Shown: piece after piece, positions 43,917-64,000 of the stretch
Layout of the letters: the number at the start of each line of letters is the position of its first letter
Numbering within the stretch: position 1 is the first letter of the stretch
Origin: Odiellus spinosus
Lineage: Eukaryota; Arthropoda; Arachnida; Opiliones; Phalangiidae
Reading direction: 5' to 3'
Assembly (NCBI GenBank): GCA_963920705.1
Contig: OY987225.1
Location: 4,528,334 to 4,592,333 of the forward strand
DNA: 64,000 nucleotides
The notes under the pieces: generated by a model
Databases searched by the model: none
Told to the model about the DNA's origin: nothing
The model's input: only the letters and a program-made list of their open reading frames with translations
Position numbers and translations under genes: made by a program

Positions 43917-43920
43917 TTTT
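43917..43920. repeat. Left copy of candidate 4-bp target-site duplication (TTTT)
   Basis: TTTT lies directly outside the left inverted-repeat end of the transposon, and the same four bases lie directly outside its right end. Because the host DNA is T-rich, a chance match is possible. Confidence 0.55.
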
Positions 43921-44519
43921 TAGTCCATGAGCCAGGTATAAATTCGAGTACCAACTCGGCGGACCAAAAGGCGATATTATTTTCATATAAAGTAGTGAAT
44001 CAGTAGTCAGAAACCGTTTGCCGGCGCCCTCTAGCGCCCAGCTATAATAAACGGCGGCCATTTAAAGATGGCGTCTGCAACAAAGTTTTAATCAGCTCTA
44101 TCTCAGCCGCTAATTCTCTTATCACAACCCAGCGTATCTTAAAAGAAAGGCCTTGATTAGGGCTACAATTTATATTCTATCATAAATTATCGTTAAAGTC
44201 TTCTTTATCCTCTTAAAAGTAGAAAATCAAATATTTCGCAAAAAAACTTACCACGTTTTCCCTCGCCAATTGTAAATAGCGCCACCTATAATTTTTTTTA
44301 ACTCATAATATCATTCCTTACCTTGTTAGCTTGAATTAAAGCGTTTTTAGTAGATCTTGGTACCCTTAATAGTTTCGCTAGAATTATTAAAGTACAAAAG
44401 GGCGGTTTCCAGAATTTAAATTTTCGGGGTTTTTTTATGAAGAAATTTTGAAATCTGAACTGTTAATTATTTAAAATATACCAAATTTGTTAAACCGGTT
44501 TAGTGTATTGTAAGACTTA
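43921..44519 (+). repeat. Left terminal inverted repeat of the Academ-like element (~599 bp)
   Basis: The repeat runs from TAGTCCATGAGCCAG to gtgtattgtaagactt and pairs with 49,780-50,388 in inverted orientation. Matching inner blocks include ggcgccctctagcgcccagc, atggcgtctgcaa and ccctcgccaattgtaaatag. It is about 10 bp shorter than the right arm because of a difference just inside the tip. Confidence 0.93.
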
Positions 44520-45033
44520 TAAGAACACTGGTGTCGATAGCTTCCTATGCATATTCGTTCTGAACCCAAAAATGACGCAACAGTAAAATTGAAAGCTAGT
44601 TACTCAATAGTTCTTCAGTACGTTTTGCAAGGCTAACTTTCACAAAGAGTAATTTGTAACAGTTCTGTTATAAGGTTTCATTGTCCCTTTAAATTGCGAA
44701 CCCAACCATCTCTTTGTCATATATAAGTGTCATATTTCGTTAGCTGTCCTTTGCCCCTTTGAACTTATTTACGATACTTTAGTTCCTCGGGCCGTAACAA
44801 AGATTTATGACTTTCTTTCAGCCGCATTTTGGGAGTTTTGTTTTGGAGTTTTGACTCTCCTCGAGAGTTCGGTCTTGGATGGCGATTCAAGAGGCAGCTA
44901 ACCCATGTCTGTCTTGTTCGTGAATTTTAAAGTATTATTTCGTTAATCAAAGTGTTTTAAATTTTTAATACCTAATAGCCCCCGCCCAAAGTGTCGCGCT
45001 CATTTAATAACTATAAAAAATTAAGATAAACAA
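44520..45033 (+). other. 5' leader of the transposase gene, no coding content seen
   Basis: This is 514 bp of element DNA between the left inverted repeat and the first ATG. No open frame of note is present. It contains a TATATAAG motif at 44,720-44,727, a hairpin with actctc/gagagt arms near 44,853, and a second T/A-rich 'ctataaaaaa' at 45,011-45,020, immediately before the start codon. An in-frame TAA at 45,022-45,024 closes the transposase frame upstream. Confidence 0.6.
44720..44727 (+). promoter_or_regulatory. Possible TATA box of the transposase gene
   Basis: TATATAAG matches a core TATA consensus 307-314 bp upstream of the ATG at 45,034 and lies outside the inverted repeat. Nothing else supports transcription from here, and such matches are frequent in AT-rich DNA. 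Confidence 0.25.
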
Positions 45034-45501
45034 ATGTCGAAGAGTGGGAGAAAAGGAGGTGGAAAGAGCAGAGAAACATGCGTACTTTGTCACAAAGAAT
45101 CACCTTTACACGAGCTCACCAGCCCTCAAGACGAACGATCTTGGAAATCTCTTTGCGAGGCTGCTAAAATAAGAAACTTTGAATCACTTTTGCGCATAGC
45201 TAATGACAATACAACATTATTCAGCGAGATCTACTATCATCGTAATTGCAGAAATAAGTTTACTTCTAAAAAAACTATATCGAAACTGGATAATCCAAAT
45301 CAAGGGCCATCAGCTCAGGACTTGGAAGTTGAAATCCCGGGTGTTGATGATCCGAGACGTTCTTCGAAGCATTGTCCCACACAGTCTCGAGTTTATGAGA
45401 AACTTTGCGTATTTTGTCAGAAAAAGGCGAAGTATATTAAAGGGTCTAACAGCCGTGAACAATTAACAGTCTGTAGACTTAAGAGCGGATCAAACGCTTA
45501 G
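45034..45501 (+). pseudogene. Transposase fragment 1: N-terminal Cys/His module
   Basis: This 155-residue open segment holds Cys16-x2-Cys19 and His69-x2-Cys72, followed by a low-complexity linker and a second Cys125-x2-Cys128. The N-terminus is basic (Lys/Arg/Gly-rich), as expected for DNA contact or nuclear entry. Its last ~10 codons are read in the wrong frame after the break near 45,475; the true continuation is in frame +2, from about 45,473, and supplies the missing His/Cys pair. Confidence 0.8.
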
Positions 45502-45559
45502 AAAGGTAGCGATAGAGAAATGTGACGATAGGCTAATCGCGGTAACTTCAAGAGACATT

Positions 45560-46330
45560 GTGGCGGCAGAAGCGCACTACCATAAATCGTGTTACAAAGA
45601 TTACACTCGCAAACCAAAAATTCAAGATCAAACGGATTCAGGCGAAACAGATCTTTACAAGCGTGTGGAAAAACTCGCTTTGGCGGAACTATTTCAAGCT
45701 CTACGAATCGAAATATTTGTGAAAAGCCCGATTTGTTCACTGAACGACCTTACTATGAAGATCATATCATCCATGGAAACGAACGGAGTTCCTGCTGATG
45801 AAGTAAGAGACTCAACAAAAAAATATCTTCGCAGAAGTATTGAAGTAGAATTTGGAGATTCATTAAATTTGTTTAGCGTTAATCGAAATATTTACCTAAG
45901 GCAAGACTGTTTATCGCTCGACTCGCTATCAGAGTCATACGTTCGTTTAAAATTAAAATACGAAAAAAAAGTGGAAGGAAGAGATTCGCTATCTTTACCT
46001 CGCCAAACAGCATTGTCGCTTCGAGAAGGCATTAAAAGCACGGTTCAAGAACAAACGTGGCCCCCTCACCCACAAGTGTTGTCGGCAAACCACTTGAAAA
46101 TACCTGAAAACCTTTCTGAATTCCTGAATAGTTTGATTGGTGGTAATAAGCTAGCGTATTCGAACCGTATCTGTCGGCTGTCGTGGTCAATAGCCCAAGA
46201 CATAATTTACGCTGTAAGTTCTGGCCAGGTGAACACACCCAAGCACATTCTACTTCCATGGGTAGTTAAAACGTTGACTGGGAATGTAGGGTTAATAAAA
46301 ACACTCAATCGTCTCGGACATTCGTGCTAG
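45560..46330 (+). pseudogene. Transposase fragment 2: end of Cys/His region and linker to the core
   Basis: This segment starts inside the protein. The frame is already coherent from about 45,473, so the codon at 45,560 is only the first start-like codon. The first residues (AEAHYHKSCY) complete the second zinc-binding-like module. The rest is a helical, charged linker. It ends at TAG 46,328-46,330 within a stretch (LNRLGHSC, then YSRLEEIDTALC) that reads on in the same frame, so one base change explains the stop. Confidence 0.8.
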
Positions 46331-46375
46331 TATTCGAGGCTAGAAGAAATAGACACTGCTTTATGCATCGAAAAA

Positions 46376-47323
46376 TTGGATAGCGTTGAAACTGAATCTT
46401 CTATTCCGATTCCTTATGGAATCTACCCAAATGTTCCAACAGTATTGGCATTTGATAACATTGATAGGCAGGAAGAAGTTTTGAGCGGAGCTGGCACTTC
46501 GCACCGAGTAAATGGAATAATGGTTCAACCACGATCACAAACATGCCACCTTCCATTGCCAGTCACCGGTCTAAGCAAGAAAGACAAGAAACATACCATT
46601 AAATTCTACGATAAACCTCTTGAAGCTTACCTAGTCGTGAAAAGAAAAGGTCCTCCTCGTCTTGTCCCAAATGATCATACTGAGCATACCGTGGCTGCAT
46701 CTGCTCAGGCAAGCTATCGAGATTTAATCTGGGTGATAGCGAGAAATTCAAATACATTGGATCAGAAGCTAAGTTCTTGGACAGGATTTAATATTTTGGT
46801 ACGCAAATCAATGCCAGTTACAGCTGATGCTGTAGGCTACTTGCCAACAATCAATGCCCCAGCAACCGAGATGTCGACTGTCCAAGAAGTCTTGCGGTAT
46901 TGCCTACGTATTAAAGATACGTTGAATCTGAAGGATATAGCCGTGGTCTTTGACCAAGCTCTATATGCCAAAGCGGCTGAAATCGCCTGGGCAAATGAAG
47001 AAAAGTACAAAAACTTGGTAATAATGATGGGAAACTTCCATAAAATATGCAATTTTATGTCGGTAATTGGCAAAATGTTTGGGGAAGCCGGTCTTCGTGA
47101 CCTAGCTGTGGAATCTGGAATTATAGCTGAAGGTTCTATCACTAAAGTACTAGAAGGAAAGCATTACAACAGATCCGTTCGTTTCCACAAACTTACCTAT
47201 GAAGCTTTAATGAGACTAGCGTGGAAAAATTTCATTCCATGGTTTGAAAATGAAGTTCAATCAACTGAAAAAATGCATGAAGCCATAAAAGAATTTCAAG
47301 AACTTCAACTTGATCCATCTTAA
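46376..47323 (+). pseudogene. Transposase fragment 3: candidate DDE catalytic core
   Basis: This segment is in the same frame as the previous one; only the TAG at 46,328 separates them. It is the best-preserved part. Features recognisable from animal proteins of this family are AFDNIDRQEEVLSG (residues 25-38), GTSHRVNGI (40-48), VVFDQALYAKAAEI (190-203), GNFHKICNF (219-227), AGLRDLAVESG (238-248), YNRSVRFHKL (264-273) and YEALMRLAW (275-283). The invariant Asp27, Asp193 and a Glu (246 or 276) are plausible catalytic residues; this assignment is inferred. It ends at TAA 47,321-47,323. Confidence 0.8.
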
Positions 47324-47380
47324 ACTACTTTACAGTCCACAATATCAAAAGAACCTTGCGAATTAATCGTCAACAAATTC

Positions 47381-48364
47381 ATGGAATTTATTAGCATCTT
47401 GCGGAACGAGAGAGGAGCTCTGTCAAAATTCTGGATGACTTACGTGGACATGGTTGGAATTTTGCTTCGACTCCTCCGAGCTGACAGAGAAGGAGATTTT
47501 TATCTACATCTATCCGCGATTCGAGATATCATTCCATGGGTATTTTCCATGGATAAAGTAAACTACTCACGATATCTCCCGGTCTATTACTGCCAGATGA
47601 CTCAGCTCATTAAAACTAGCCCCGAGCTTTTTGAGCATTTCAAAGACGGCGGATTCTCGGTTCAACTCAGGCAAAACAACCCATTTGGCCGAATCGCTAT
47701 TGACCAGACTACCGAAGAAACCGTCAATAAAGATACTCAAACTGCTGGTGGAACTAAAGGTTTCAGTCTCAAACCAGGAACTGATTCGCGTTATTACCTC
47801 ACTGCTGAATACAGAGCAGAGGCACTTAGGCAGTTGCGAGAGCAAATTTCTCAGCAAGGACCAGGACTATCTCATCCAGATTTGGAAAAAAGTCGAATAC
47901 GAAGAGATGAAGCTGATGTGTCCTCGGTGGTCGAGCTACTTGAAAATAATTGGACCAATCATTTTGGGGGAGACCCATCGGACATCATAAGCATTTCTAC
48001 GGGGGCAGAGGCAACGAGTGAGATTTCTAAAGATCTTCTTTCCGCTGGAATAAAAGGAGAAGAAGCGTACCAGAATTTTTTGAAAAGTCGATTGGAAGCT
48101 AGAACCGGATTTCACGACCCTATCAAGAAGCTTAATTTGAAGACCTTTAGCTCATTGAAAAAAACTTTCTTAAAGGGGAAAAACAAAGATGTTTTACTTA
48201 AATCGGACCAGAGACTTTTCGCCAACATGGTTTTAATCGCCGAGAATCGAAAGCTGAATATGCAAGACGTGTTTAGTCATCCTTTGGGTCCCTTGCCTTC
48301 GACCCTCGCCAAAGCTGATGGTACATTAATAAAAACAATAAAGCTGCTCTGGGAAAGTACCTAG
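47381..48364 (+). pseudogene. Transposase fragment 4: region between core and nuclease domain
   Basis: This segment continues the same frame after the TAA at 47,321; the intervening codons (47,324-47,380) are open. It includes a helical part (residues 1-90), NNPFGRIAIDQTTEETVNKD (about 105-124) and a C-terminal stretch ending LPSTLAKADGTLIKT. After that the frame shifts near 48,335 by one base. The neighbouring frame then gives AALGKYLEDKVGPSEVINS and runs into the next fragment. An A-rich run (aataaaaacaata) lies at the break. Confidence 0.8.
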
Positions 48365-48423
48365 AAGACAAAGTAGGCCCAAGTGAAGTAATTAATTCAC
48401 CAAACGCTTCATTAATTGATGCA

Positions 48424-48980
48424 ATGGCCCTTATCCAGAAGCTCCATGGAGAGAATCACACATTCGAAGATCTGTCAGATCACATTTTTAAGCAAATTCT
48501 CCACTCAGCTAAAGATAGCGAAAGAATAGATATAATATTCGACGTTTATAAACAACGCTCTATTAAAACTGCAAAAAGGTTAAATAGGGGTTCTACGGAT
48601 GGCTTGTCCTTCAACCAAATTCGACCTAATCATAAAATAAAGAATTGGAGACGCCTTTCGTCGTGCACTGAAAGCAAGAACAATTTGATAAGATTTTTAA
48701 CAGAAAACTGGAAAAACGAAAAGAGTAGATGTCTGCTTGGAGAAGTAGTTTTGTACGTCACCAACTTGGATAAATGCGTAAAAATAACGAAAGAGGATGC
48801 TCAAGAGGTCGAAGAACTCTGCTCTAATCACGAGGAAGCTGACACTCGTTTGGTTTTACACGCTAAACACGCTGCTGAAAAATATTCAACTTTAGTTTGC
48901 ATTTCCGATGACACTGATGTTCTAGTTTTGTTTCTCGCTTTCTCATCTCAAATAAAATCGAACGTTTTTATTAGGTTAGA
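48424..48980 (+). pseudogene. Transposase fragment 5: N-terminal half of PIN/XPG-like nuclease domain
   Basis: The frame is coherent from about 48,339; the codon at 48,424 is internal. It shows an acidic strand (IDIIFDVYK, residues 35-43), then HEEADTRLVLHAKHAA (136-151) and VCISDDTDVLVLFLAF (158-173). The spacing of acidic residues resembles the XPG-I signature of structure-specific nucleases (EAxxQ/EADTR followed by a DxD strand). The frame is lost near 48,960-48,980, after SNVF, next to a run of five T; the remaining codons to 49,074 are out of frame. Confidence 0.75.
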
Positions 48981-49679
48981 ATGGTTGATATTACAAAGAT
49001 GTCTACCGCTATTGGAAGTGAAACTTGCAAGGCTCTTCTGGGTTTACATTGCTGGACTGGTTGTGATACTGTAAGTTCAATGGCTGGCCAGGGAGAAATG
49101 AAAGCACTTAAAATCATTTCAAAAAACGATAAGCTGAGGTCCGTACTTTCTAGTATTGGAAACGACTGGAACCTTTCAGAAGAGACACTAGCGGGAATTG
49201 AAGAACTAACTTGTCAAATGTATTGTAGTAATACGAAGGTGGAAGATGTTAATACTCTTCGATATAAAATCTTTCAAGCTAAAAAGGGAAACTTGGAATC
49301 GGGACAGCTGCCACCTGGCTCAGATACGTTAGAACAGCACACTCGTCGAGCAAATTACCAAGCGGGTATTTGGAAACGAAGCCTGGAAAATTATCCGGAC
49401 ATTCCTGATCCAACTCATGGCCATGGCTGGAAAACAGACGAAGATGGAAATCTTGAAATTAACTGGATGACTGGTTCACCAGCTCCAGAAACAGTTCTAA
49501 GTCTAATGGCTTGCAAATGCTCTCGAACATGCAAACCTTCGGAGTGCTCTTGCATATTAAACGGTTTAAAATGTACATCTGCCTGTAAGTTAACAAACTG
49601 TTCAAACGTAGTAGACGAAGTTGAAGACGATTTGAGAGGTCACGAAGACAGCGATTCGTGCAATAGTGATTCCGATTAA
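48981..49679 (+). pseudogene. Transposase fragment 6: end of nuclease domain, Cys8 finger, acidic tail
   Basis: This begins with ALLGLHCWTGCDTVSSMAGQ (residues 18-37), which lines up with the helix-turn region following the last acidic residue in FEN1/XPG proteins (L-x-G-x-D...G-x-G). A middle part with conserved Trp and His residues (WNLSEETLAG, LEQHTRRANYQ, GHGW) follows. Then comes an eight-cysteine cluster at residues 178, 180, 184, 189, 191, 198, 202 and 207. The protein ends in an Asp/Glu/Ser tail. A Cys8 finger next to an XPG-type nuclease is the reason for the Academ assignment. Confidence 0.78.
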
Positions 49680-49691
49680 CGTTGTATAAGA

Positions 49692-49697
49692 AATAAA
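49692..49697 (+). promoter_or_regulatory. Probable polyadenylation signal AATAAA
   Basis: AATAAA begins 13 bp after the transposase stop codon and about 80 bp before the right inverted repeat. A T-rich stretch (ttttcttttttt) follows at 49,741-49,752, a suitable downstream element. Confidence 0.5.
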
Positions 49698-49762
49698 TGC
49701 GAGCGAAAATCTTTTATTTTACACAGATGTTCATGTTCAATTTTCTTTTTTTAGCTGTAGAG

Positions 49763-49943
49763 CCACTATTAAGCGTACCAAGTCTTACAATACACTGAAC
49801 CGGTTTTAAGAAATTTGGTATATTTTAAATAATTAACAGTTCAGATTTCAAAATTTCTTCATAAAAAAACCCCGGAAATTTAAATTCTGGAAACCGCCCT
49901 TTTGTACTGTAATAATTCTAGCGACACTATTAAGGGTACCAAG
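49763..49943 (+). repeat. Short direct repeat at the inner edge of the right inverted repeat
   Basis: A ~20-bp sequence (cactattaagcgtaccaag at 49,764-49,782) recurs as cactattaagggtaccaag at 49,925-49,943, inside the right arm. The left arm has only one counterpart, near 44,360, so the outer copy is extra. Confidence 0.55.
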
Positions 49944-50388
49944 ATCTACTATAAACGCTTTACTTAAAGCTAACAAGGTAAGGAATGATATTATGAGTTA
50001 AAAAAAATTATAGGTGGCGCTATTTACAATTGGCGAGGGAAAACGTGGCAAGTTTTTTTGCGAAATATTTGATTTTCTACTTTTAAGAGGATAACGAAGA
50101 CTTAAACGATAATGTATGATAGAATATAAATTGTAGCCCTAATCAAGACCTTTCTTTTAAGATACGCCGGGTTGTGATAAGAGAATTAGCGGCTGAGATA
50201 GAGCTGATTAAATCTTGGTTGCAGACGCCATCTTTAAATGGCCGCCGTTTATTATAGCTGGGCGCTAGAGGGCGCCGGCAAACGGTTTCCGACTACTGAT
50301 TCACTACTTTATATGAAAATAATATCGTCTTTTGGTCCGCCGAGTTGGTACTCGAATGTTTGATTTCAGGCAGCTGGCTCATGGACTA
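49780..50388 (-). repeat. Right terminal inverted repeat of the Academ-like element (~609 bp)
   Basis: This is the reverse complement of 43,921-44,519, starting at aagtcttacaatacactgaa and ending CTGGCTCATGGACTA. Small differences from the left arm are spread along its length, for example a ~10-bp extra stretch (tgatttcagg) just inside the tip. Confidence 0.93.
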
Positions 50389-50392
50389 TTTT
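50389..50392. repeat. Right copy of candidate target-site duplication (TTTT)
   Basis: TTTT directly follows the right end of the transposon and matches 43,917-43,920. It leads straight into a satellite monomer start (gatgttaat). Confidence 0.55.
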
Positions 50393-50960
50393 GATGTTAA
50401 TACCTCCGGCAGCCCCAAAGCGAGACACTGAAATCTTTACATTTTCCCACTGTCCTTTAAACCCAATTAAAATAAATTTTCTCATCATTTTTGATGTTAA
50501 TACCTCCGACAGCCGCAGTGAAATCTTTAGATTTTCCCCCATTGCCCTTTAAACTAATTTAAATGAATTTTTTCATCAATTTTGATGTTAATACCTCCGA
50601 CAGCCGCAGTGATATCTTTATATTTTCCCCATTGCCCTTTAAACCAAATTTAAATTTGTTTTTTCATCAATTTTGATGTTTATACCTCCGACAGCCGCAG
50701 TGAAATCTTTATTTTCCCCATTGCCCTTTAAACCTAATTTAAATTAATTTTTTTTCATCAATTTTGATGTTAATACCTCCTACAGCCGCAGTGAAATCTT
50801 TATATTTTCCCCATTGCCCTTTAAACCAAATTTAAATAAATTTTTTTCATCAATTTTGATGTTAAAACCTCCGACAGCCGCAGTGAAATCTTTATAATAT
50901 TCCATTACCCTTTAAACTAAATTCCAATTAATTTTTTCATTATTTTTGATGTTAATACCT
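50389..50960 (+). repeat. Diverged satellite edge: about six ~90-bp monomers
   Basis: Six units begin with gatgttaatacctcc (one with gatgttaaaacctcc, one with gatgtttatacctcc), continue cgacagccgcagtgaaatct and ttccccattgccctttaaac, and end ttttttcatcaatttt. They clearly derive from the same ancestor as the main satellite. They lack about 10 bp in the cacttgattc region and carry 'acctcc' where the main array has 'agctgg'. The final unit breaks off at gatgttaataccttcc, near 50,960. Higher divergence at an array edge is expected, because homogenisation is weak there. Confidence 0.9.
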
Positions 50961-51031
50961 TCCTTATTGCCGTTCGGAATTTCAATCATTTTTAAAAAGG
51001 AGAGTACTTTTAAGGCGGAGAAATTGAAACT
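50961..51031. other. Low-copy spacer, nothing recognised
   Basis: This is 71 bp between the last satellite-like unit and the foldback element. It contains aaggcggagaaatt, which also occurs in variant form inside the neighbouring element. Confidence 0.5.
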
Positions 51032-51541
51032 TAATGTTATTCTATGGGATTTAGATTTTTTGTAAGAGACTTACCTTTGAGATTTATTTTCTAATGATTC
51101 CAGATATTTTTCGGGCTTTATTTTAAGACAAATTTTATAATTTTACACCGATTAGTTTGGCCACAATCTATCAATAAAAACGGCAAAAATATGAAGGAGG
51201 AGAAATTAAGTCATTAGCGTTCAATACCCATAGCCTCCAAATCAAGCGCGCTCCTCCTGCGCGTGATTTTAAAAAGCCATATAAAACCTAAGGCTAATTT
51301 GTCAAATTAGGCCTAGGTTTTTGGCGAATCTATTTCTCCGCCTTGTTGTTCCCTCCGTTTTCATGAATAGATTGTGGGCCAACTAATCGGTGTATTATTA
51401 TGAAATTATTCTTAAAATAAAGCTAGAATCTTAATTCATACCACACGGAAAATCTAAGTTTTAAAAATATCCGGAAGTATTAGAAAATAAACCTGAAAGG
51501 TAAGCCACTTTCAAAAAACCAAATCCCATAGAATAACATTA
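51032..51541. mobile_element. ~510-bp foldback MITE bounded by TA
   Basis: The outer sequence TAATGTTATTCTATGGGATT at the left end is inverted at the right end. Matching arms run from 51,032 to about 51,183 and from about 51,355 to 51,541, the right arm carrying ~35 bp extra. TA at both outer edges (51,032-51,033 and 51,540-51,541) fits a TA target duplication of the Tc1/mariner type, though the superfamily cannot be proved without the source transposase. The middle has no coding frame and holds a further hairpin (51,284-51,320). Confidence 0.8.
51284..51320. repeat. Internal hairpin in the foldback element
   Basis: Two 17-bp arms, aaacctaaggctaattt and aaattaggcctaggttt, are separated by gtc and pair at 15 of 17 positions. 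A second small inverted pair around the gcgcgctcctcctgcgcg core lies at 51,246-51,263. Confidence 0.75.
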
Positions 51542-52117
51542 CGAATTTGGCCATGCGCGAAACCAGCTAAGTACCAAAAAAGGGTCAACTTCAGAATTAA
51601 TTTTAAAATACTAAGACTTAATATTTTTAAATGAAACTTGGAAAAGGCACACATTCGAAACTTGCTCTCCCACTTAAAATTGATTTTAACCGTAACAAAT
51701 AATTCCTCTTTTAGTTCTGCGATGCAAGGGACATGTCCTCGAAAGAGTCGATTTTAATGTTATTTCAATGGGGAAATGGAGCGTTCTGATTGGCTAAAGG
51801 CTGAATTTGTGAAATAACATTACATATGATGATGGGTTCATAGAATATACGGTTTTGCTGCCTGCTTTTTAATTCGCGGATCGATTACGGCGAAAACTTT
51901 CTTGGTACTTTGCCATTCTGCTTCACCGTGCTAAAGAACCCTTGCCTTGGATTTTATACGCGGTTTTATGATATCGTCGAGTACCGTTACATGCCTCGCC
52001 TAGGCCTTTTTTGTCGCTAAGCCTTTGACAAGGGCGGTTTCCAAAACGTCTCCTCGTGCCACGGAACTGGCGTATGTATCCAGATGCCAAAACTCTTAGC
52101 TTCCTACCGCTTGGGTG
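51542..52117. other. Low-copy spacer, no gene recognised
   Basis: This is 576 bp of ordinary base composition, with no long open frame on either strand and no RNA gene recognised. It contains the 68-bp inverted-repeat element at 51,755-51,822. Confidence 0.5.
51755..51822. mobile_element. 68-bp inverted-repeat element sharing ends with the foldback MITE
   Basis: TAATGTTATTTCA at 51,755 is perfectly inverted as TGAAATAACATTA at 51,810-51,822. The first ten bases equal the tips of the 510-bp element and the next few (aatggg) are similar. It is probably an internally deleted relative or a related MITE family. Confidence 0.5.
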
Positions 52118-52303
52118 TTAAGCTGGTTTTTCAAGTAGCGGGCAAAAATCAAGCGGGTACGAGAAAATGAAAGCGAAACGATTTACACGCTCCCGCGCTC
52201 AAAATCGCTTTTATGAAAACGGTCTTTTGCTTAGATATTTTCGTTTTTTCTAGCACCCGCTCGATTTTTGCCCGCTACCCGCTCCTTTGAAAACCCAGCT
52301 TAA
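52118..52303. mobile_element. 186-bp MITE bounded by TTAA
   Basis: The left end TTAAGCTGGTTTTTCAAG and the right end CTTTGAAAACCCAGCTTAA are inverted copies. An inner inverted pair, tagcgggcaaaaatc / gatttttgcccgcta, follows. TTAA at both edges fits a TTAA-specific element (piggyBac- or Kolobok-type). There is no coding capacity. Confidence 0.75.
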
Positions 52304-52398
52304 CGGCGAAATAATACTTTCAAGACGAACAATTTTAAGTATGTGAATCGAACATTTTCTTCATCTCTGGAAATGAGCTCGAAACTTAACCGGAATTC
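52304..52398. other. Low-copy spacer before the minisatellite
   Basis: This is 95 bp between the TTAA element and the first agaaagccagg unit. Nothing was recognised in it. Confidence 0.45.
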
Positions 52399-53586
52399 AG
52401 AAAGCCAGGCTCCCTTTGAATGGCTTTTAGAAAGTGAGGCTCTCTTTGAGGGGCTTTTAGAAAGCGAGGCTCCCTTTGAGAGGGTTTAAGAAAGCCAGGG
52501 CCCTTTCAGGGGCTTTTAAAAAGCATCGCTCCCTTTCATGGGGGCTTTTAGAAAGCCAGGCTCTCTTTCATGGGGCTTTTAGAAAGCCATGCTCCCTTTA
52601 GGAAGCAAGGCTCCCTTTAAAGGAGCTTTTAGAAAGCCAGGCTCCCTTTAAAGGAGCTTTTAGAAAGCCAGGTTCCCTTTTGAGGGGATTTAGAAAGCCA
52701 GTTTCCCTTGTAAGGGGGCCTTTAGAAAGCAGGCTAATTTTGAGGGCCTTCTAGAAAGCCAGGTTACCTATCAGGGGCTTTTAGAAAGCCAGGCTCCCTT
52801 TGATGGAGCTTCTAGAAAGCCAGGCTCCCTTTGATGGAGCTTCTAGAAAGCCAGGCTCCCTTTGAGTGGCTTTTAGAAAGCCAGGCTCCCTTTCAGGGGG
52901 CTTTTAGAAAGCCAGGCTCCCTTTGAGGGCTTCTAGAAATCCAGGCTCCTTTTGAGGGGCTTTTAGATAGCCAGGCTCCCTTTTTGGGGGCTTTTAGAAA
53001 GCCAGGCTCCCTTTTTGGGTGGCTTTTAGAAAGCCAGGCTCCCTTTTTGGGTGGCTTTTAGAAAGCCAGGCTCCCTTTCAGTGGGGCTTTTTGAAAGCTA
53101 GGCTCTATTTGGGGGGCTTTTAGAAAGCGAGCCTGCCTTCCAGGGGGCTTTTAGAAAACCAGGCTCCCTTTCAGTGGGGCTTTTAGAAAGCCAGTTTCCC
53201 TTTGAGGGGACTTTTAGAAAGCGAGGCTCCCTTTGAGGGGCTTTTAGAAAACCAGGCTCCCTTTGAATGGCTTTTAGAAAGCCAGGCTCCCTTTCAGTGT
53301 GGCTTTTAGAAAGCGAGGCTCTCTTTGAGGGGCTTTTAGAAAGTCAGGTTACCTTTCAGGGGCTTTTAGAAAGCCTGGCTCCCTTTGATGGAGCTTCTAG
53401 AAAGCCAGACTCCCTTTGATGGAGCTTCTAGAAAGCCAGGCTCCCTTTGATGGAGCTTCTAGAAAGCGAGGCTCCCTTTGATGGAGCTTCTAGAAAGCGA
53501 GGCTCCCTTTGAGGGGCTTTTAGAAAGCGAGGCTCCCTTTGAAGGGGATTTTAGAAAACCAGGCTCCCTTTGGAGCGGCTTTTAGA

Positions 53587-56500
53587 AAGTAAGGCTCCCC
53601 TTGAAGGGGCTTCTAGAAAGCGAGGCTCCCTTTCAGGGGGCTTTTACAGAGCCAGGCTCCGTTTCAGGGAGGCTTTTAGAAAGCCTGGCACCCTTTCAGG
53701 GTGATTTTAGAAATCCAGGCTCCTTTTTTAGGGGATTTTAGAATGCCAGGCTCCCGTCGAGGGTTTTTTAGAAAGCCAGGCCCCCTTTCAAGGGCTTTTA
53801 GAAAGCCAGGCTCCTTTTGAGGGGCTTCTAGAAAGCCAGGTTCAATTTCAGGGGCTTTTAGAATGCCAGGCTCCCTATGAGGGATATTCTAGAAAGACAG
53901 GCTCTCTTTAAGGGGCTTCTAGAAAGCAGGGCTCCCTTTCAGGGGGCTTTTAGAAAGACAGGCTCCCTTTTTGGGGGCTTTTAGAAAGCCAGGCTCCTTT
54001 TTTGGGGGCTTTAGAAAGCCAGGCTCCCTTTTTGGGTGGCTTTTAGAAAGCCAGGCTCTCTTTCAGTGGGGCTTTTTGAAAGCGAGGCTCTCTTTGGGGG
54101 CTTTTAGAAAGCGAGGCTCATTTCCAGGGGGCTTTTAGAAAGCGACGCTGCCTTCCAGGCGGCTTTTAGAAAACCAGGCTCCCTTTCAGTGGGGCTTTTA
54201 GAAAGCCAGTTTCCCTTTGATGGGACTTTTAGAAAGCGAGGCTCCCTTTGAGGGGCTTTTAGAAAGCCAGGCTCCCTTTGAATGGCTTTTAGAAAACCAG
54301 GCTCCCTTTGAATGGCTTTTAGAAAGCCAGGCTCGCTTTCAGTGTGGCTTTTAGAAAGCGAGGCTCTCTTTGAGGGGCTTTTAGAAAGCCAGGTTATCTT
54401 TCAGGGGCTTTTAGAAAGCCAGGCTCCCTTTGATGGAGCTTCTATAAAGCCAGGCTCCCTTTGATGGAGCTTCTAGAAAGCCAGGCTCCCTTTGATGGAG
54501 CTTCTAGGAAGCGAGGCTCCCTTTGATGGAGCTTCTAGAAAGCCAGGCTCCCTTTGAGGGGCTTTTAGAAAGCCAGGCTCCCTTTCAGGGGGCTTTTAGA
54601 AAGAGAAGCTCCCTTTTTGGGGGCTTTTAGAAAGCCAGTCTTCCTTTTTGGATGGCTTTTAGAAAGCGAGGCTCCCTTTGAAGGGGCTTTTAGAAAACCA
54701 GGCTCCCTTTGGAGCAGCTTTTAGAAAGTAAGACTCCCCTTGAAGGGGCATCTAGAAAGCGAGGCTCCCTTTCAGGGGGCTTTTACAGAGCTAGGCTCCG
54801 TTTCAGAGAGGCTTTTAGAAAGCCTGGCTCCCTTTCAGGGTGACTTTTAGAAATCCAGGCTCTGTTTTTAGGGGATTTTAGAATGCCAGGCTCCCGTCGA
54901 GGGTTTTTTAGAAAGCCAGGCCCCCTTTCAAGGGCTTTTAGAAAGCCAGTTTCCATTTGAGGGACCTTTAGAAAGCTCGGCTCCCTTTATAGGGCTTTTA
55001 GAAAGCGAGGCTCCCATTGAGGTTTTTTTAGAAAATCATGCTCCTTTTGAGGGGCCTCTAGAAAGCCAGGCTCCTTTTGAGGGGCCTCTAGAAAGCCAGG
55101 CTCCTTTTGAGGGGCCTCTAGAAAGACAGGCTCCTTTTGAGGGGCCTCTAGAAAGACAGGCTCCCTTTCAGGGGCTATTATAAAGCGAGGCTCCCTTTGA
55201 GTGGCTTTTAGAAAGCCAGGCTCACTTTAAAGGGGCTTCTAGAAAGACAGGTTCCCTTTTGAGGGGGTTGAGAATGCCAGGTTCCCTTTTGAGGGGATTG
55301 AGAATGCCAGTTTCCCTTGTGAGGGGGCCTTTAGAAAGAAAGGCTCCCTTTCAGGGGATTTTAAAAAGCAGGGCTCCCTTTGAGGGAGCTTCTAGAAAGC
55401 TAGGCTCCCTTTGAGGGGGCTTCTAGAAAGCCAGGCTCCCTTTGAGGGGGCTTCTAGAAAGCCAGGCTCCTTTTCAGTGCGGCTTTTAGAAAGCCAGGCT
55501 CCTTTTCAGGGGGGCTTTTAGAAAGCCAGGCTCCCTTTCAAGGGCTTTTAGAAAGAAAGGCTCCTTTTTAGGGGCTTCTAGAAAGCCAGGATCCCTTTCA
55601 GGGGCTTTTAGAATGCGAGGCTCCTTTGAAGGGGCTTCTAGAAAGCCAGGTTCCCTTTTGAGGGGGGCTTCTAGAAAGCCAGGTTCCCTTTTGAGGGGGG
55701 CTTCTAGAAAGCCAGGTTCCCTTTCAGGGGCTTCTAGAAAGCCAGGTTCCCTTTCAGGGGTCTTTTAGGAAGCGAGGTTCCCTTTGAGGGTCTTTTAGAA
55801 AGCCAGGCTCCCTTTCAGGGGGATTTTAGAAAGCCATGCTCCTTTTTTAGGAGATTTTAGAAAGCCAGGTTCCCGTTGAGGGTTTTTTAAAAAGCCAGGC
55901 TCCCTTTGAAGGGGCTTCTAGAAAGCGAGGCTCCCTTTCAGGGGGCTTTTAGATATCCAGGCTATTTCAGGAGCGGCTTTTAGAAAGTATGGCTCCCCTT
56001 GAAGGGGCTTCTAAAAAGAGAGGCTCCCTTTCAGGGGGGCTTTTACAGAGCCAGACTCCGTTTCAGGGAGGCTTTTAGAAAGCCAGGCTCCATTTCAGGG
56101 TGCTTTTAGAAAGCCAGGCTCCTTTTTTAGGGGATTTTTGAAAGCCAGGCTCCTTTTGAGGGGCTTGGAGAAAGCCAGGTTTCCTTTCATGGGCTTCTAA
56201 AAAGCCAGCCTCCTTTGAAGGGGCTTCTAAAAAGCCAGTTTCCCTTTGAGGTGACTTTTGCAAAGCGAGGCTCCCTTTGAATGGCTTTTAGAAAGCCAGG
56301 CTCCCTTTCAGGGGAGCTTTTAGAAAGCCAGGCTCCCTTTCAGGGGGCTTTTAGAAAGACAGTCTCCCTTTCAGTGGGGCTTTTAGAAAGGGAGGCTCCC
56401 TTTGAGGGGGCTTTTAGAAAACCAGGCTCCCTTTGGAGCGGCTTTTTGAAAGCCAGGCTCCCTTTGAAGGGGCTTCTTACAGAGGGCTTTTTCAGAGTCA

Positions 56501-57250
56501 GGCTCCCTTTCAGGTGGCTTTTAGAAATCCAGGCTCCTTTCAGGGGGCTTTTAGAAAGCCAGGTTCCTCTTTTAGGGGATTTTAGAAAGCCAGGCTCTTT
56601 TGAGGGGCTTCTAGAAAGCCAGGCTCTTTTGAGGGGCTTCTAGAAAGCCAGGTTCCCTTTCAGGCCCTTTTTGGAATGCCAGGCTGCTTTGAAGGGGCTT
56701 CTATAAAGCCCGGTTCCCTTTTGAGTGGGGCTTTTAAGAAAGCCAGTTTCTCTTTGAGGGACTTTTCAGTGGGGCTTTTAGAAAGGGAGTCTCCGTTTGA
56801 GGGGGCTTTTAGAAATCCAGGCTCCTTTCAGGGGGCTTTTAGAAAGCCAGGTTCCTCTTTTAGGGGCTTTTAGAAAGCCAAGTTCCCTTTCAGGGGTCTT
56901 TTAGGAAGCGAGGCTCCCTTTGAGGGGCTTTTAAAAGCCAGGGTCTCTTTCAGGGGGATTTTAGAAGGCCATGCTCCTTTTTTAGGTGATTTTAGAAAGA
57001 CAGGCTCCCGTTGAGGGTTTTTTCAAAAGCCAGGCTCCCTTTGAAGGGGCTTCTAGAAAGCGAGGCTCCCTTTCAGGGGGATTTTAGATATCCAGGCTCC
57101 TTTCAGGAGCGGCTTTTAGAAAGTAAGGCTCCCCTTGAAGGGGCTTCTAGAAAGCGAGGCTCCCTTTCAGGGGGGCTTTTACAGAGCCTGGCTCCATTTC
57201 AGGGAGGCTTTTAGAAAGCCAGGCTCCATTTCAGGGTGCTTTTAGAAAGC
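53587..57250 (+). repeat. ~1.13-kb super-repeats within the minisatellite
   Basis: The marker run agaaagtaaggctccccttg, then a 'cttttacagagcc' unit, a 'gtttcagggaggc' unit and the 'cccg..gagggttttttagaaa' unit, appears at about 53,587, 54,725, 55,987 and 57,120. Three spacings are near 1,138, 1,262 and 1,134 bp. The run at 53,023-53,540 is likewise repeated at about 54,028-54,545. Confidence 0.75.
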
Positions 57251-58509
57251 CAGGCTCCTTTTTTAGGGGATTTTAGAAAGCCAGGCTCCTTTTGAGGGGC
57301 TTGGAGAAAGCCAGGTTTCCTTTCAGGGGCTTTTAGAATGCCAGGCTCCTTAGAAGGGGTTCTTCTAAAAAGCCAGCCTCCTTAGAAGGGGCTTCTAAAA
57401 AGCCAGACTCCTTAGAAGGGGTTCTTCTAAAAAGCCAGACTCCTTTGAAGGGGCTTCTAAAAAGCCAGTTTCCCTTTGAGGTGACTTTTAGAAAGCGAGG
57501 CTCCCTTTGAATGGCTTTTAGAAGCCAGGCTCCCTCTCAGGGGAGCTTTTAGAAAGCCAGGCTCCCTTTCAGGGAAGCTTTTAGAAAGCCAGGCTCCCTT
57601 TCAGGGGGCTTTTAGAAAGCCAGTCTCCATTTCAGTGGCGCTTTTAGAAAGGGAGGCTCCCTTTGAGGGGGCTTTTAGAAAACCAGGCTCCATTTGGAGC
57701 GGCTTTTAGAAATCCAGGCTCCTTTCAGGGGGCTTTTAGAAAGCCAGGTTCCTCTTTTAGGGGATTTTAGAAAGCCAGGCTCCTTTTGAGTGGCTTCTAG
57801 AAAGCCAGGTTGCCTTTTGAGTGGGGCTTTAAGAAAGCCAGTTTCCCTTTGAGGGACCTTTAGAAAGCCAGGCTCCCTTTAGAGGGCGTTTAGAAAGCCA
57901 GGCTCAAATTGAGGCTTTTTTTAGAAAGCCATGCTCCTTTTGAGGGGCCTCTAGAAGCCATGCTCCTTTTGAGGGGCTTCTAGAAAGCCAGGTTCCCTTT
58001 CAGGGGCTTTTAGAAAGCCAGGCTCCCTTTGAGGGGGCTTTAAGAAAGCGAGGCTCCCTTTGATTGGCTTTTAGAAATCCAGGTTCCCTTTCAGTATAGC
58101 TTTTAGAAAGCCCGGCTCCCTTTCTGTGTGGCTTTTAGAAAGTGAGCCTCTCTTTGAGGGGCTTTTAGAAAGCGAGACTCTCTTTGAGGGGCTTTTAGAA
58201 AGCGAGACTCTCTTTGAGGGGCTTTTAGAAAGCCAGGCTCCCTTTGAGGGGCTTTTAGAAAGCGAGGCTCCCTTTGATTGGCTTTTAGAAAGCCAGGTTC
58301 CCATTCAGGGGAGCTTTTAGAAAACCAGGCTCCCTTTGGAGCGGCTTTTAGAAAGCCAGGCTCCTTTTGAAGGGGGCTTTTACAGAGCCAGGCTCCTTTT
58401 CAGGGAGGCTTTTAGAAAGCCAGGCTCCCTTTTAGGGAGGCTTTTAGAAACCCAGGCTCCCGTTCAGGGGCTTTTAGAAAAGCGAGGCTCCCATTGAGAG
58501 GCTTTGAGA

Positions 58510-59170
58510 AAGCCAGGGCCCTTTCAGGGGCTTTTAAAAAGCATCGCTCCCTTTCATAGGGGCTTTTAGAAAGCCAGGCTCCCTTTCATGGGGGCTTTTA
58601 GAAAGCCATGTTTCCTTTCAGGGAGTTTTTAGAAAGCCAGGATCCTTTTAAATGGGCTTCTAGAAAGTCAGGCTCCCTTTAAAGGGGGCTTTTAGAAAGC
58701 GGTAATCCTTTTCAGGGGGGCTTTTAGAAAGCCAGGCTCCCTTTCAAGGGCTTGTAGAAAGCCAGGCTATCTTTGAGGGGGCTTTTAGAAAGCCAGGCTC
58801 CCTTTCAAGCGCTTTAAGAAAGCCATGCACCTTTCAGGGGGGCTTTTAGAAAGCTATGCTCCCTTTCAGGGGGGCTTTTAGAAAGCTATGCTCCCTTTCA
58901 GGGGTACTTTTAGAACGCCAGGTTCCCTTTCAATGTGGCTTTTAGAAAGCGAGGCTCTCTTTGAGGGGCCTTTAGAAAGCGAGGCTCCCTTTGAGAGGAT
59001 TTAAGAAAGCCAGCGCCCTTTCAGGGGCTTTTAGAAAGCCATGTTTCCTTTCAGGGAGTTTTTAGAAAGCCAGGATCCTTTTAAATGGGCTTCTAGAAAG
59101 TCAGGCTCCCTTTAAAGGGGGCTTTTAGAAAGCGGTAATCCTTTTCAGGGGGGCTTTTAGAAAGCCAGGC
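58510..59170 (+). repeat. Local duplication in the minisatellite, offset about 437 bp
   Basis: The rare variants gccatgtttcctttcaggga, ccaggatccttttaaatggg and aaagcggtaatccttttcag occur in this order at about 58,605-58,720 and again at about 59,040-59,160. The nearby aaagcatcgctccctttcat variant also occurs near the start of the array (52,530). Confidence 0.7.
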
Positions 59171-60483
59171 TCCCTTTCAAGGGCTTGTAGAAAGCCAGGC
59201 TCCCTTTAAAGGGGCTTCTAGAAAGCCAGGCTCCTTTTAAAGGGGCTTTTAGAAAGCCAGGTTCACTTTTGAGGGGGTGGAGAATGCCAGTTTCCCTTGT
59301 GAGGGGGCCTTTAGAAAGCCAGGCTCCCTTTCAGGGGGCCTTTAGAAAGCCAGGCTCCCTTTCAGGGGGCCTTTAGAAAGCCAGGCTCCCTTTCAGGGGA
59401 TTTTAGGAAGCCAGGCTCCCTTTGAGGGAGCTTCTAGAAAGCCAGGCTCCCTTTGAGGGGGCTTCTAGAAAGCCAGGCTCCCTTAGAGGGGGCTTCTAGA
59501 AAGCCAGGCTCCCTTTCAGGGGCTTTTAGAAAGCCAGGTTCCCTTTTTGGGTGGCTTTTTGAAAGCCAGGCTCCCTTTTTGGGTGGCTTTTAGAAAGCCA
59601 GGCTCCCTTTCAGGGGGGCTTTTAGAAAGCCAGGCTCCCTTTCAAGGGCTTTTAGAAAGCCAGGCTCCTTTTGAGGGGCTTCTAGAAAGCCAGGATTCCT
59701 TTCAGGGGCCTTTAGAATACCAGGCTATTTTGAAGGGGCTTTTAGAAAGCCAGGTCCCCTTTTGAGGGGGGCTTCTAGAAAGCCAGGCTCCTTTTCTGTG
59801 GCTTTTAGAAAGTGAGCCTCTCTTTGAGGGGCTTTTAGAAAGCGAGGCTCTCTTTGAGGGGCTTTTAGAAAGCCAGGCTTCTTTTGAGGGGATTCTAGTA
59901 AGCCAGGCTCCCTTTCAGGGGCTTTAAGAATGCCAGGCTCCCTTTGAGTGAGCTTCTAGAAAGCCAGCATCCCTTTGAGGGAGCTTCTAGGAAGCCAGGC
60001 TCCCTTTGAGGGCTTTTAGAAAGCCAGGCTCCCTTTGAGTTGGCTTTTAGAAAACCAGGCTCTATTTGGAGCCGCTTTTAGAAAGCCAGGCTCCTTTTGT
60101 GGGGCTTCTAGAAAGCCAGGTTCCCTTTCAGGGGCTTTCAGAATGCCAGGCTCCCTTTGAGGGAGCTTCTAGAAAGACAGGCTCTCTATAAGGGGCTTCT
60201 AGAAAGCTGGGCTCCCTTTCAGGGGGCTTCTAGAAAGCCAGTCTCCCTTTCAGTGGGGCTTTTAGAAAGCGAGGGTTTTTTTGGGTGGCTTTTAGAAAGC
60301 GAGGATCCCTTCCAGGGGGCTTTTAGAAAGCCAGTTTCCCTTTGAGGGGCTTTTAGAAAGCCAGGCTCCTTTTGAATGACTTTTAGAAAACCAGGCTCCC
60401 TTTGAATGGCTTTTAGAAAGCCAAGCTCCCTTTTTGGGGGCTTTTAGAAAGCCAGGCTCCCTTTTTGGGTGGCTTTTAGAAAG

Positions 60484-60488
60484 CCAGG
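60484..60488. repeat. Left target-site duplication CCAGG
   Basis: CCAGG is part of the minisatellite unit (agaaagccaggctccc). It is present both before and after the inserted element, whereas an uninterrupted unit has it once. Confidence 0.8.
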
Positions 60489-60786
60489 GAGTCTATTCTC
60501 TAACTTCATTCGGATCGAAAGCTGCTCGAATCATTCGGAATTCGGGTTGTCTGGGCCAAAAATACAAATAAGCGTATTCTGTAGGGCTCGAATGCGAATC
60601 ATTCGGTTCGGGTTGATTCGAACCATTCGGCGGCCGATAGAGCCGTCCGAATCAAGTTTCCTCTCCTTTTGAGTGTTTTCCCCCTTTCGTTCAGCCCCGT
60701 TGCTCCTCGTCTCATGGTGTTTGTACGTAAAATTTAACCGCCATGTTTCATCAACTACAAATCAAAATAATCAAATTTGCGGCAAT

Positions 60787-60995
60787 AAATGATTGTATTT
60801 ATTTTAAATTAAATCTAATCATTTTAAGTTTAACGGTAAATGATTGCATTTATTTTAAATTAAATAACATAAAAGTTTAACGCTAGATGATTGAATTTAT
60901 TTAATATTGATATTAAATCTAATAATTAAAAGTCTAGTACGCTAGATGATCGTATTTAAATAAAATTAATATTAAATCTTGTGATTTGGAGCATT
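60787..60995 (+). repeat. Four imperfect ~50-bp tandem copies inside the inserted element
   Basis: The copies start near 60,787, 60,838, 60,885 and 60,944. Each has the pattern a(a/g)atgat(t/c)g.attta followed by ttaaattaaat-like and agtttaacg(g/c)t-like parts. Lengths are about 47 to 59 bp. Confidence 0.65.
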
Positions 60996-61520
60996 ACTCT
61001 GAATTATTGTTTTATTACGTATCAAATTTATTTCACGAAAGGATTCTTCTAGATAAATACCAACGATTGGTATTTTTATTGCCATCTAAATTTAAATTAA
61101 AATGGTTATTTAAACCAATGGTATTATGAAAACCATATAAACTACATAAGTCTGAAATTACCATTTTATTTAATCGTTTATTGAATGAAGAATCATTATT
61201 CCTATACTAACCCTTAATTTCAAATAAGTTTACACTCTCAGTTTCATTAAATTTTAAAAAATAAAAATAACTAAGAGGCATATTCATAATTTGATCAATA
61301 TAATAATGCTAAATTTCCCAAGAAATCAAACATATTTGATCGAGTTGAATAATGTCCCAAAACTATTATTTTAAAAATCTAAATATTTTTAAATATTCCC
61401 GCCCGAATTCTGACCAATAAGAGAGAAATAATACCTCGCGATCTCCTACTTTCTCCACATGACGTACACTATGATTCGGATTCGGGCTCGAAGGGATCCG
61501 AATCACCATTCGAATAAGGG

Positions 61521-61533
61521 TTAGAGAATAGGC
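61521..61533 (-). repeat. Internal copy of the element's terminal motif
   Basis: TTAGAGAATAGGC repeats the right tip (61,609-61,621) about 88 bp further in. With its flank (cgaataaggg) it resembles the left tip and its flank (ctaacttcattcgg) better than the outer right tip does, suggesting that the original right end was here. Confidence 0.6.
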
Positions 61534-61621
61534 TTTTTTGTACCAAACCCGAATGAAGGCGATGCGAATGATTCGAACTCTCCGAATTCGAATGCTTTGG
61601 ATTTTTTTAGAGAATAGCCTC

Positions 61622-61626
61622 CCAGG
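61622..61626. repeat. Right target-site duplication CCAGG
   Basis: CCAGG follows the right tip and leads into ctccctttcagtggg, resuming the minisatellite unit at the point where it was broken at 60,488. Confidence 0.8.
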
Positions 61627-64000
61627 CTCCCTTTCAGTGGGTCTTTTTGAAAGCGAGGCTCTCTTTGGGGGGTGTTTAGAAAGCGGGACTCACTTCCAGG
61701 GGGCTTTTTGACAGCGAGGCTCTCTTTGGGGGGCGTTTAGAAAGCCAGGCTCCCTTTCAGTGGGGCTTTTAGAAAGCCAGGCTTCCTTTCAGTGGGGCTT
61801 TTAGAAAGCCAGTTTCCCTTTGAGGGAACTTTTAGAAATCGAGCCTCCCTTTGAGGGGCTTCTAGAAAGCCAGTTTCCCTTTGAGGGGACTTTTAGAAAG
61901 TCAGGCTCCCTTTCAGGGGGCTTTTAGTAAGCCAGTCTCCTTTCAGTGGGGCTTTTAAGAGACCAGGCTCCCTTTGGAGCGGCTTTTAGAAAGCGAGGCT
62001 CCCTTCCAGGGGGCTTTTAGAAAGCGAGACTCCCTTCCAGGGGGCTTTTAGAAAGCCAGGCTCCCTTTTAGTGGGGCTTTTAGAAAGCCTGTTTCCCTTT
62101 GAGGGGACTTTTAGAAAGCGAGGCTCCCTTTGAGGGGACTTTTAGAAAGCGAGGCTCCCTTTGAGGGGCTTTTAGAAAGCCAGGCTCCCTTTGAATGGCT
62201 TTTAGAAAACCAGGCTCCCTTGAATGGCTTTTAAAAAGCCAGGCTCCCTTTCAGTGTGGCTTTAAGAAAGCGAGGCTCTCTTTGAGAGGACTTTTAGAAA
62301 GCGAGGCTCCCTTTGAGGGGACTTTTAGAAAGCGAGGCTCCCTTTCAATGGCTTTTAGAAAACCAGGCTCCCTTGAATGACTTTTAAAAAGCCAGGCTCC
62401 CTTGAATGGCTTTTAAAAAGCCAGGCTCCCTTTCAGTGTGGCTTTAAGAAAGCGAGGCTCTCTTTGAGAGGACTTTTAGAAAGCGAGGCTCCCTTTGAGG
62501 GGACTTTTAGAAAGCGAGGCTCCCTTTGAGGGGCTTTTAGAAAGCCAGGCTCCCTTTGAATGGCTTTTAGAAAGCCAGGCTCCCTTTCAGTGTGGCTTTT
62601 AGAAAGCGAGGCTCTCTTTGAGGGGCTTTTAGAAAGCCAGGTTACCTTTCAGGGCTTTTAAAAAGCCACTGTCCCTTTGATGTAGCTTCTAGAAAGCCAG
62701 CCTCCCTTTGATGGAACTTCTGGAAAGCCAGGCTCCCTTTGATGGAGCTTCTAGAAAGCCAGGCTCCCTTTGAGGGGCGTTTAGAAAACAAGGCTCCCTT
62801 TGGAGCGGCTTTTAGAAAGTAAGGCTCCCCTTGAAGGGGCTTCTAGAAAGCGTGGCTCCCTTTCAGGGGGGCTTTTACAGAGCCAGGCTCCGTTTCAGGG
62901 TGCTTTTAGAAAGCCAGGCTCCTTTTTTAGGGAATTTTAGAAAGCCAGGCTCCTTTTGAGGGGCTTGGAGGAAGCCAGGTTTCTATTCAGGGGGCTTTTA
63001 GAATACCAGGTTCCTTTGAAGGGGCTTCTAAAAAGCCAGGCTCCTTTGAAGGGGCTTCTAAAAAGCTAGGCTCCTTTGAAGGGGCTTCTAAAAAGCTAGG
63101 CTCCTTTGAAGGGGCTTCTAAAAAGCCAGGCTCCTTTGAAGGGGCTTCTAAAAAGGCAGGCTCCTTTGAAGGGGGTTCTAAAAATCCAGTTTCCCTTTGA
63201 GGTGACTTTAAGAAAGCGAGGCTCCCTTTGAGGGGACTTTTAGAAAGCGAGGCTCCCTTTGAGGGGACTTTTAGAAAGCGAGGCTCCCTTTGAATGGCTT
63301 TTAGAAAACCAGGCTCCCTTGAATGGCTTTTAAAAAGCCAGGCTCCCTTTCAGTGTGGCTTTAAGAAAGCGAGGCTCTCTTTGAGAGGACTTTTAGAAAG
63401 CGAGGCTCCCTTTGAGGGGACTTTTAGAAAGCGAGGCTCCCTTTGAATGGCTTTTAGAAAACCAGGCTCCCTTGAATGGCTTTTAAAAAGCCAGGCTCCC
63501 TTGAATGGCTTTTAAAAAGCCAGGCTCCCTTTCAGTGTGGCTTTAAGAAAGCGAGGCTCTCTTTGAGAGGACTTTTAGAAAGCGAGGCTCCCTTTGAGGG
63601 GACTTTTAGAAAGCGAGGCTCCCTTTGAGGGGCTTTTAGAAAGCCAGGCTCCCTTTGAATGGCTTTTAGAAAACCAGGCTCCGTTTGAATGGCTTTTAGA
63701 AAGCCAGGCTCCCTTTCAGTGTGGCTTTTAGAAAGCGAGGCTCTCTTTGAGGGGCTTTTAGAAAGCCAGGTTACCTTTCAGGGCTTTTAAAAAGCCAGGG
63801 TCCCTTTGATGTAGCTTCTAGAAAGCCAGCCTCCCTTTGATGGAACTTCTGGAAAGCCAGGCTCCCTTTGATGGAGCTTCTAGAAAGCCAGGCTCCCTTT
63901 GAGGGGCTTTTAGAAAACAAGGCTCCCTTTGGAGCGGCTTTTAGAAAGTAAGACTCCCCTTGAAGGGGCTTCTAGAAAGCGTGGCTCCCTTTCAAGGGGG
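61622..64000 (+). repeat. ~30-bp minisatellite array, right part (about 77 units, runs off the window)
   Basis: The unit is the same as at 52,399-60,488, and the array continues past the right edge. A block with the variants ccctttgatgtagcttc, gatggaacttctgg and gtaaggctccccttg is at about 62,651-62,900 and again at 63,779-64,000, spaced about 1,129 bp apart. The gaatggcttttaaaaagcc / gtgtggctttaagaaagcg run occurs near 62,220, 62,400, 63,320 and 63,480. A run of five nearly identical units (ggcttctaaaaagc.aggctcctttgaagg) lies at 63,015-63,170. Confidence 0.97.

Follow-up and report, generated by a model that had tools for sequence, protein, structure and literature searches.

A mirror pair of Academ-like transposons at satellite array edges in Odiellus spinosus

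The window analyzed here is a 64,000-nucleotide stretch of Odiellus spinosus DNA. It contains a 6,468-bp Academ-like transposon at positions 43921-50388 on the forward strand (G000 C1:4572254-4578721), which we call copy A. The element sits at the boundary of a satellite array, and a second copy, copy B, faces it in mirror orientation on the same contig. We consider it probable that an AcademX-like element inserted into a T-run of the satellite, that its gene then broke, and that an inverted duplication subsequently took in both the element and the array edge. As a transposon the element is ordinary and of a known kind; what makes it instructive is its setting.

Results

The element is bounded by long terminal inverted repeats (TIRs). 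The left TIR (43921-44518, forward strand, 598 bp) begins with TAGTCCATGAGCC, and the right TIR (49780-50388, reverse strand) is 609 bp long. Aligned end to end, the two have 577 identities, 21 mismatches and 11 gap letters. Their local alignment score is 518, compared with a maximum of 13 over 50 shuffles of the left TIR. Directly outside the left and right ends lies the target-site duplication of copy A, TTTT (43917-43920 and 50389-50392). Because the target is a T-run, a duplication of either 3 or 4 bp fits. A third copy, copy C (C275:826120-832593; 6,474 bp), lies between GAATA and ATAGAC; its ends are again TAGTCCATGAGCC, and ATA is duplicated on either side of them. Copy C is an independent insertion with the same two ends as copy A and with its own duplication, so the element ends are real. 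The original prediction of a 6.47-kb element with both ends preserved, inverted repeats of about 600 bp and TTTT flanks is thereby borne out. A check for copies whose ends lie elsewhere was also run, and B and C both end at these two termini. The two flanks of copy B hold no matching duplication pair.

Between the TIRs lies a single broken transposase gene on the forward strand, from an ATG at 45034 to a stop at 49679 (4,646 bp, about 1,549 codons). This agrees with the predicted single-gene layout and frame of about 1,550 codons. In copy A, on our reading, two in-frame stops and three frame changes split the gene into six open pieces. It is broken in all three near-full copies. The broken gene of copy C still has a single open frame 1,100 codons long, a length that 200 first-order Markov shuffles did not approach (at most 162), and the coding reading is therefore not due to chance.

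The motifs of the gene follow a definite order: N-terminal Cys/His pairs, three acidic motifs, an XPG/FEN1-like group and eight cysteines. The N-terminal pairs, CVLCHKE, YYHRNC, CVFCQKK and HYHKSC (45079-45592, forward strand), may be zinc-finger-like. The acidic motifs FDNID (46451-46465), VVFDQ (46943-46957) and TEETVNKD (47711-47734), at computed coordinates, span 46451-47734 on the forward strand; we take them to be a DDE core with a putative catalytic role. The motifs LGPLP, IIFDVY, HEEADTR, CISDDTDV and CWTGCDT (48284-49070, forward strand) are spread over three frames and presumably mark an XPG/FEN1-like nuclease. The eight-cysteine cluster lies near the C terminus, at 49512-49601 on the forward strand.

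The DDE-like, XPG-like and eight-cysteine regions that had been predicted are thus present as motifs in order, but Pfam, a PDB sequence search and folding gave them no support. Six pieces from the window and four pieces from copies A, B and C returned nothing above the Pfam cut-off. An XPG family was absent from the four pieces at E-values up to 10 with filters on, and no helicase family appeared in the six window pieces or in the four from A, B and C. The lowest sub-cut-off E-values were 0.0022 for CCDC93_CC and 0.013 for Kazal_1, both of which we take as chance, and 0.039 for TCR over the cysteine cluster of copy A; TCR gave 1.1 over the cluster of copy C. The PDB search with two long protein pieces found no match. 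Four viral scans and one phage search also returned nothing, and these are weak tests, animal transposons being hardly expected there. AlphaFold without an alignment produced two low-confidence models with mean pLDDT of 38.0 and 38.7. In the 38.7 model, FDNID and VVFDQ lie on or beside strands, a long helical stretch follows, and TEETVNKD is then placed on a helix; the number of strands in this model exceeds that of a plain RNase H core. Both low-confidence predicted folds neither support nor exclude the DDE and XPG reading.

An XPG-like nuclease and an eight-cysteine cluster are traits of Academ and AcademX, and the cluster of eight is present in the element. Among the papers listed in our literature search, none named "Academ" together with "XPG". 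The Academ superfamily and its AcademX lineage are reportedly the subject of work by Kapitonov and Jurka in 2010 and by Kojima in 2020. Neither trait is confirmed by a Pfam or PDB match to its domain, which leaves room for another or undescribed DDE superfamily in which the XPG-like and eight-cysteine likenesses are misread. We regard this as improbable, as the motif order and the 3-4 bp duplication fit AcademX.

AcademX has a target-site duplication of 3 or 4 bp and encodes a nuclease rather than a helicase, while AcademH has a duplication of 9 or 10 bp and encodes a helicase (PMC10045372). The element matches AcademX in duplication length (TTTT for copy A and ATA for copy C) and, on our motif reading, would also encode a putative nuclease rather than a helicase. 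AcademH belongs to the same superfamily and differs in both traits, neither of which is seen in the element: the pieces scanned hold no helicase, and the duplication is 3-4 bp. Judged from motif order and duplication length, the element would belong to Academ, most likely to the subgroup AcademX. The predicted Academ-like identity thus gains from the motif layout and the duplication length and gained nothing from the Pfam, PDB and viral scans. The size of the element is near the mean of 5,565 bp given for bivalve Academ elements in PMC10294476. The same study describes 100 curated full-length Academ consensuses in one bivalve library, so full-length members are not scarce, and the prediction that few full-length copies are described finds no support.

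We searched the genome (443,074,358 bases in 286 contigs) with the first 600 bases of the element and obtained at least 14 matches. Two fall in copy A, four in copy B, three in copy C, one in a fragment on C142 that corresponds to window positions 48976-49850, and four in relics. Copy B (C1:4492089-4499990, reverse strand) measures 7,902 bp and carries two inserts, one of about 1.0 kb and the other of about 0.46 kb. Copies A and B mismatch at 61 of 6418 sites, A and C at 86 of 6423, and B and C at 81 of 6376. These three near-full copies differ by only 0.95-1.34%, so the element is not very old; "decayed", as it was called, suits the broken gene but not an element of great age. In the three-copy comparison the odd letter is in A at 31 sites, in B at 27 and in C at 52, and two sites have three letters. 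The right TIR (about 610 bp) carries 9 of the 31 odd sites of copy A. Conversion from the left TIR was rejected as the cause of this excess, since the left TIR has the other copies' letter at all nine sites. The left TIR of copy B contains an inserted, near-perfect palindrome of 462 bp (96%; L016:7693-8154) with TTAGG-like runs.

The relic TIRs (C202, C178, C1:1560857 and C1:479405) match the element at 85-90% over 149-191 bp. Two of them, C202 and C178, represent a single locus (99.9% identity over 9,877 bp), and the three distinct relic loci share a flank beside serpin-like gene copies (serpin named by eye). The relics are therefore one old insertion copied with a host gene, and we rejected them as extra independent copies, the four matches reducing to one old event. 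Non-autonomous elements with an internal satellite, a candidate reading of the tandem arrays in L019 and L020, were rejected on the same evidence of shared flank and locus. Each of the three older relics has one end: L017 starts with the same TAGTCCATGAGCC, L019 is without the first two bases of the terminus, and L020 is altered there.

A satellite of about 100 bp fills the left flank up to the element (1-43920, forward strand; array detection gave 1-43915 with 442.8 copies). To the right, satellite extends over 50389-50960 on the forward strand. Here a 91-bp unit makes up 5.9 copies at 50429-50960, and 50389-50428 is satellite-like by eye. The 91-bp unit is identical to the 100-bp unit at 77 of 91 aligned positions, plus 9 gap letters. 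The predicted satellite array boundary is therefore found, with a relative of the left-hand satellite on the right. In the mapped region, C1:4470301-4602333, copy B (reverse) comes first and copy A (forward) last. Next to copy B lie 6.4 kb of satellite in reverse orientation (C1:4499991 to about 4506380), then a 6.7-kb stretch of other DNA in which hAT-like coding was recognized by eye, then 59 kb of satellite in forward orientation adjoining copy A (C1 about 4513100-4572253). The two copies are thus mirror-oriented, with their inner ends 72 kb apart.

The satellite adjoining A and that adjoining B show 2 differences in 225 bp. Among five satellite motifs tested, three are unique within each array and lie at matching distances of 9, 54 and 81 bp from A and from B; the other two have further occurrences in the longer array. 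Distinctive satellite is confined to the last 120 bp or so: 60-bp windows there reach at most 55 matches elsewhere, and the six outermost 60-bp windows (starting at or before base 75) each recur 60/60 in the longer array. Within the element, 19 bp present in C are missing from A and B. The frame of copy C runs through these 19 bp, so the loss in A and B is derived. A and B also have derived letters in common at 231, 581 and 6184, with the opposite TIR as outgroup. The common private satellite junction and the shared derived changes therefore point to a single duplication that included both the element and the array edge.

Farther out the likeness fades. Satellite arms of 6.39 kb in collinear placement are 90.7% identical, compared with 88.1-91.0% (mean 89.7%) in 12 displaced placements, and a list of the 25 best arm alignments does not include the collinear one. 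Going outward per 100 columns, identity is 99, 100, 89, 88 and 100%, then 77-96%. Beyond the last few hundred base pairs, the satellite arms are no more alike than displaced stretches, while the divergence between the transposon arms A and B is 0.95%. Either reshuffling of the satellite has far outpaced the decay of the transposon, or no more than a few hundred bases at the edge were copied and joined to an array of other origin.

Discussion

We propose that a DDE cut-and-paste Academ element, most likely AcademX, inserted in a T-run of the satellite with a 3-4 bp duplication, as the flanks of A and C show. Its protein may have bound the long TIRs via the N-terminal zinc-finger-like pairs, with the putative DDE core cutting and joining the DNA. 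The XPG-like part could have been an accessory flap nuclease that helped to process the ends or to repair gaps. The transposase gene would have broken after insertion. Element and array edge were then duplicated in inverted orientation, as their shared private changes show; the mechanism, and the direction that makes B the new copy, are presumed. The remaining satellite arms would have lost their common order by unequal exchange, or would never have been copied.

On the outer side of copy B, other DNA sets in precisely at the right terminus. It differs from the flank of A, so plain duplication of the locus is insufficient. It is nearly an even prospect that B had inserted on its own at a TTA/TAA site and that a break within it was later repaired with A as the template, the copying having run past the left end and on into the satellite edge. 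The junction would then come from recombination between the copies, the outer end would be the old end of B, and perhaps only the edge was copied. Common repair pathways would suffice for this, the arm likeness is confined to the vicinity of the element, and the right flank of B, TAACTG, is unlike TTTTGATG of A. However, the shared derived changes reach to 5054 (the 19-bp loss) and, at the one site 6184, still farther along the 6468 positions, which leaves little separate right part.

It is unlikely, in our estimate, that the transposase itself made the mirror copy by alternative-ends transposition, a route known from maize Ac/Ds, carrying the element and flanking satellite to a new site. Such an event would put the outer breakpoint of B exactly at the right terminus. 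Rearrangements via alternative transposition are described for maize Ac in two reports (PMC3744419, PMC8225341). Movement of A, satellite and B as one composite unit is not favored, as the outer flanks (outward TAACTG and TTTTGATG) have no matching duplication. An assembly artifact is improbable: satellite arrays assemble poorly and this assembly does hold redundant pieces, such as C202 and C178, but A and B differ by several indels in addition to their 61 mismatches, B has its two inserts, and the outer flanks are unlike.

The locus may be a useful marker, since arms about 99% identical flank satellite without common order beyond the edge. If a long stretch of array was copied, satellite turnover can be gauged here against the divergence of the transposon; if only the edge was copied, the locus illustrates how satellite can be taken to a new place by a transposon. 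Should the mirror copy be the product of alternative-ends transposition, Academ elements could seed inverted satellite arrays. The Foldback transposon Tetris of Drosophila virilis, as reported in PMC4079207, likewise links a transposon to satellite and inverted repeats. Unlike in Tetris, the satellite here is outside the transposon's own ends, and the mirror pair arose later.

Other repeats in the window

Right of the element, within 50400-64000, there are no stop-to-stop frames of at least 150 aa. Nested inverted repeats at 51074-51500, whose arms measure 97 and 38 bp and whose center measures 125 bp, look like another small foldback or MITE. A minisatellite with a unit of 30-31 bp occupies 52399-60488 and 61622-63992, about 10 kb in all, and by eye its unit could form a small hairpin (CTCCCTTTGAGGGG). 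The 30-bp minisatellite is interrupted by a MITE-like element of about 1.13 kb (about 60486-61622), which has short inverted ends beginning GGAGTCTATTCTCTAA and, by eye, CAG on both sides. A second copy of this MITE-like element lies at C1:4489421-4490929.
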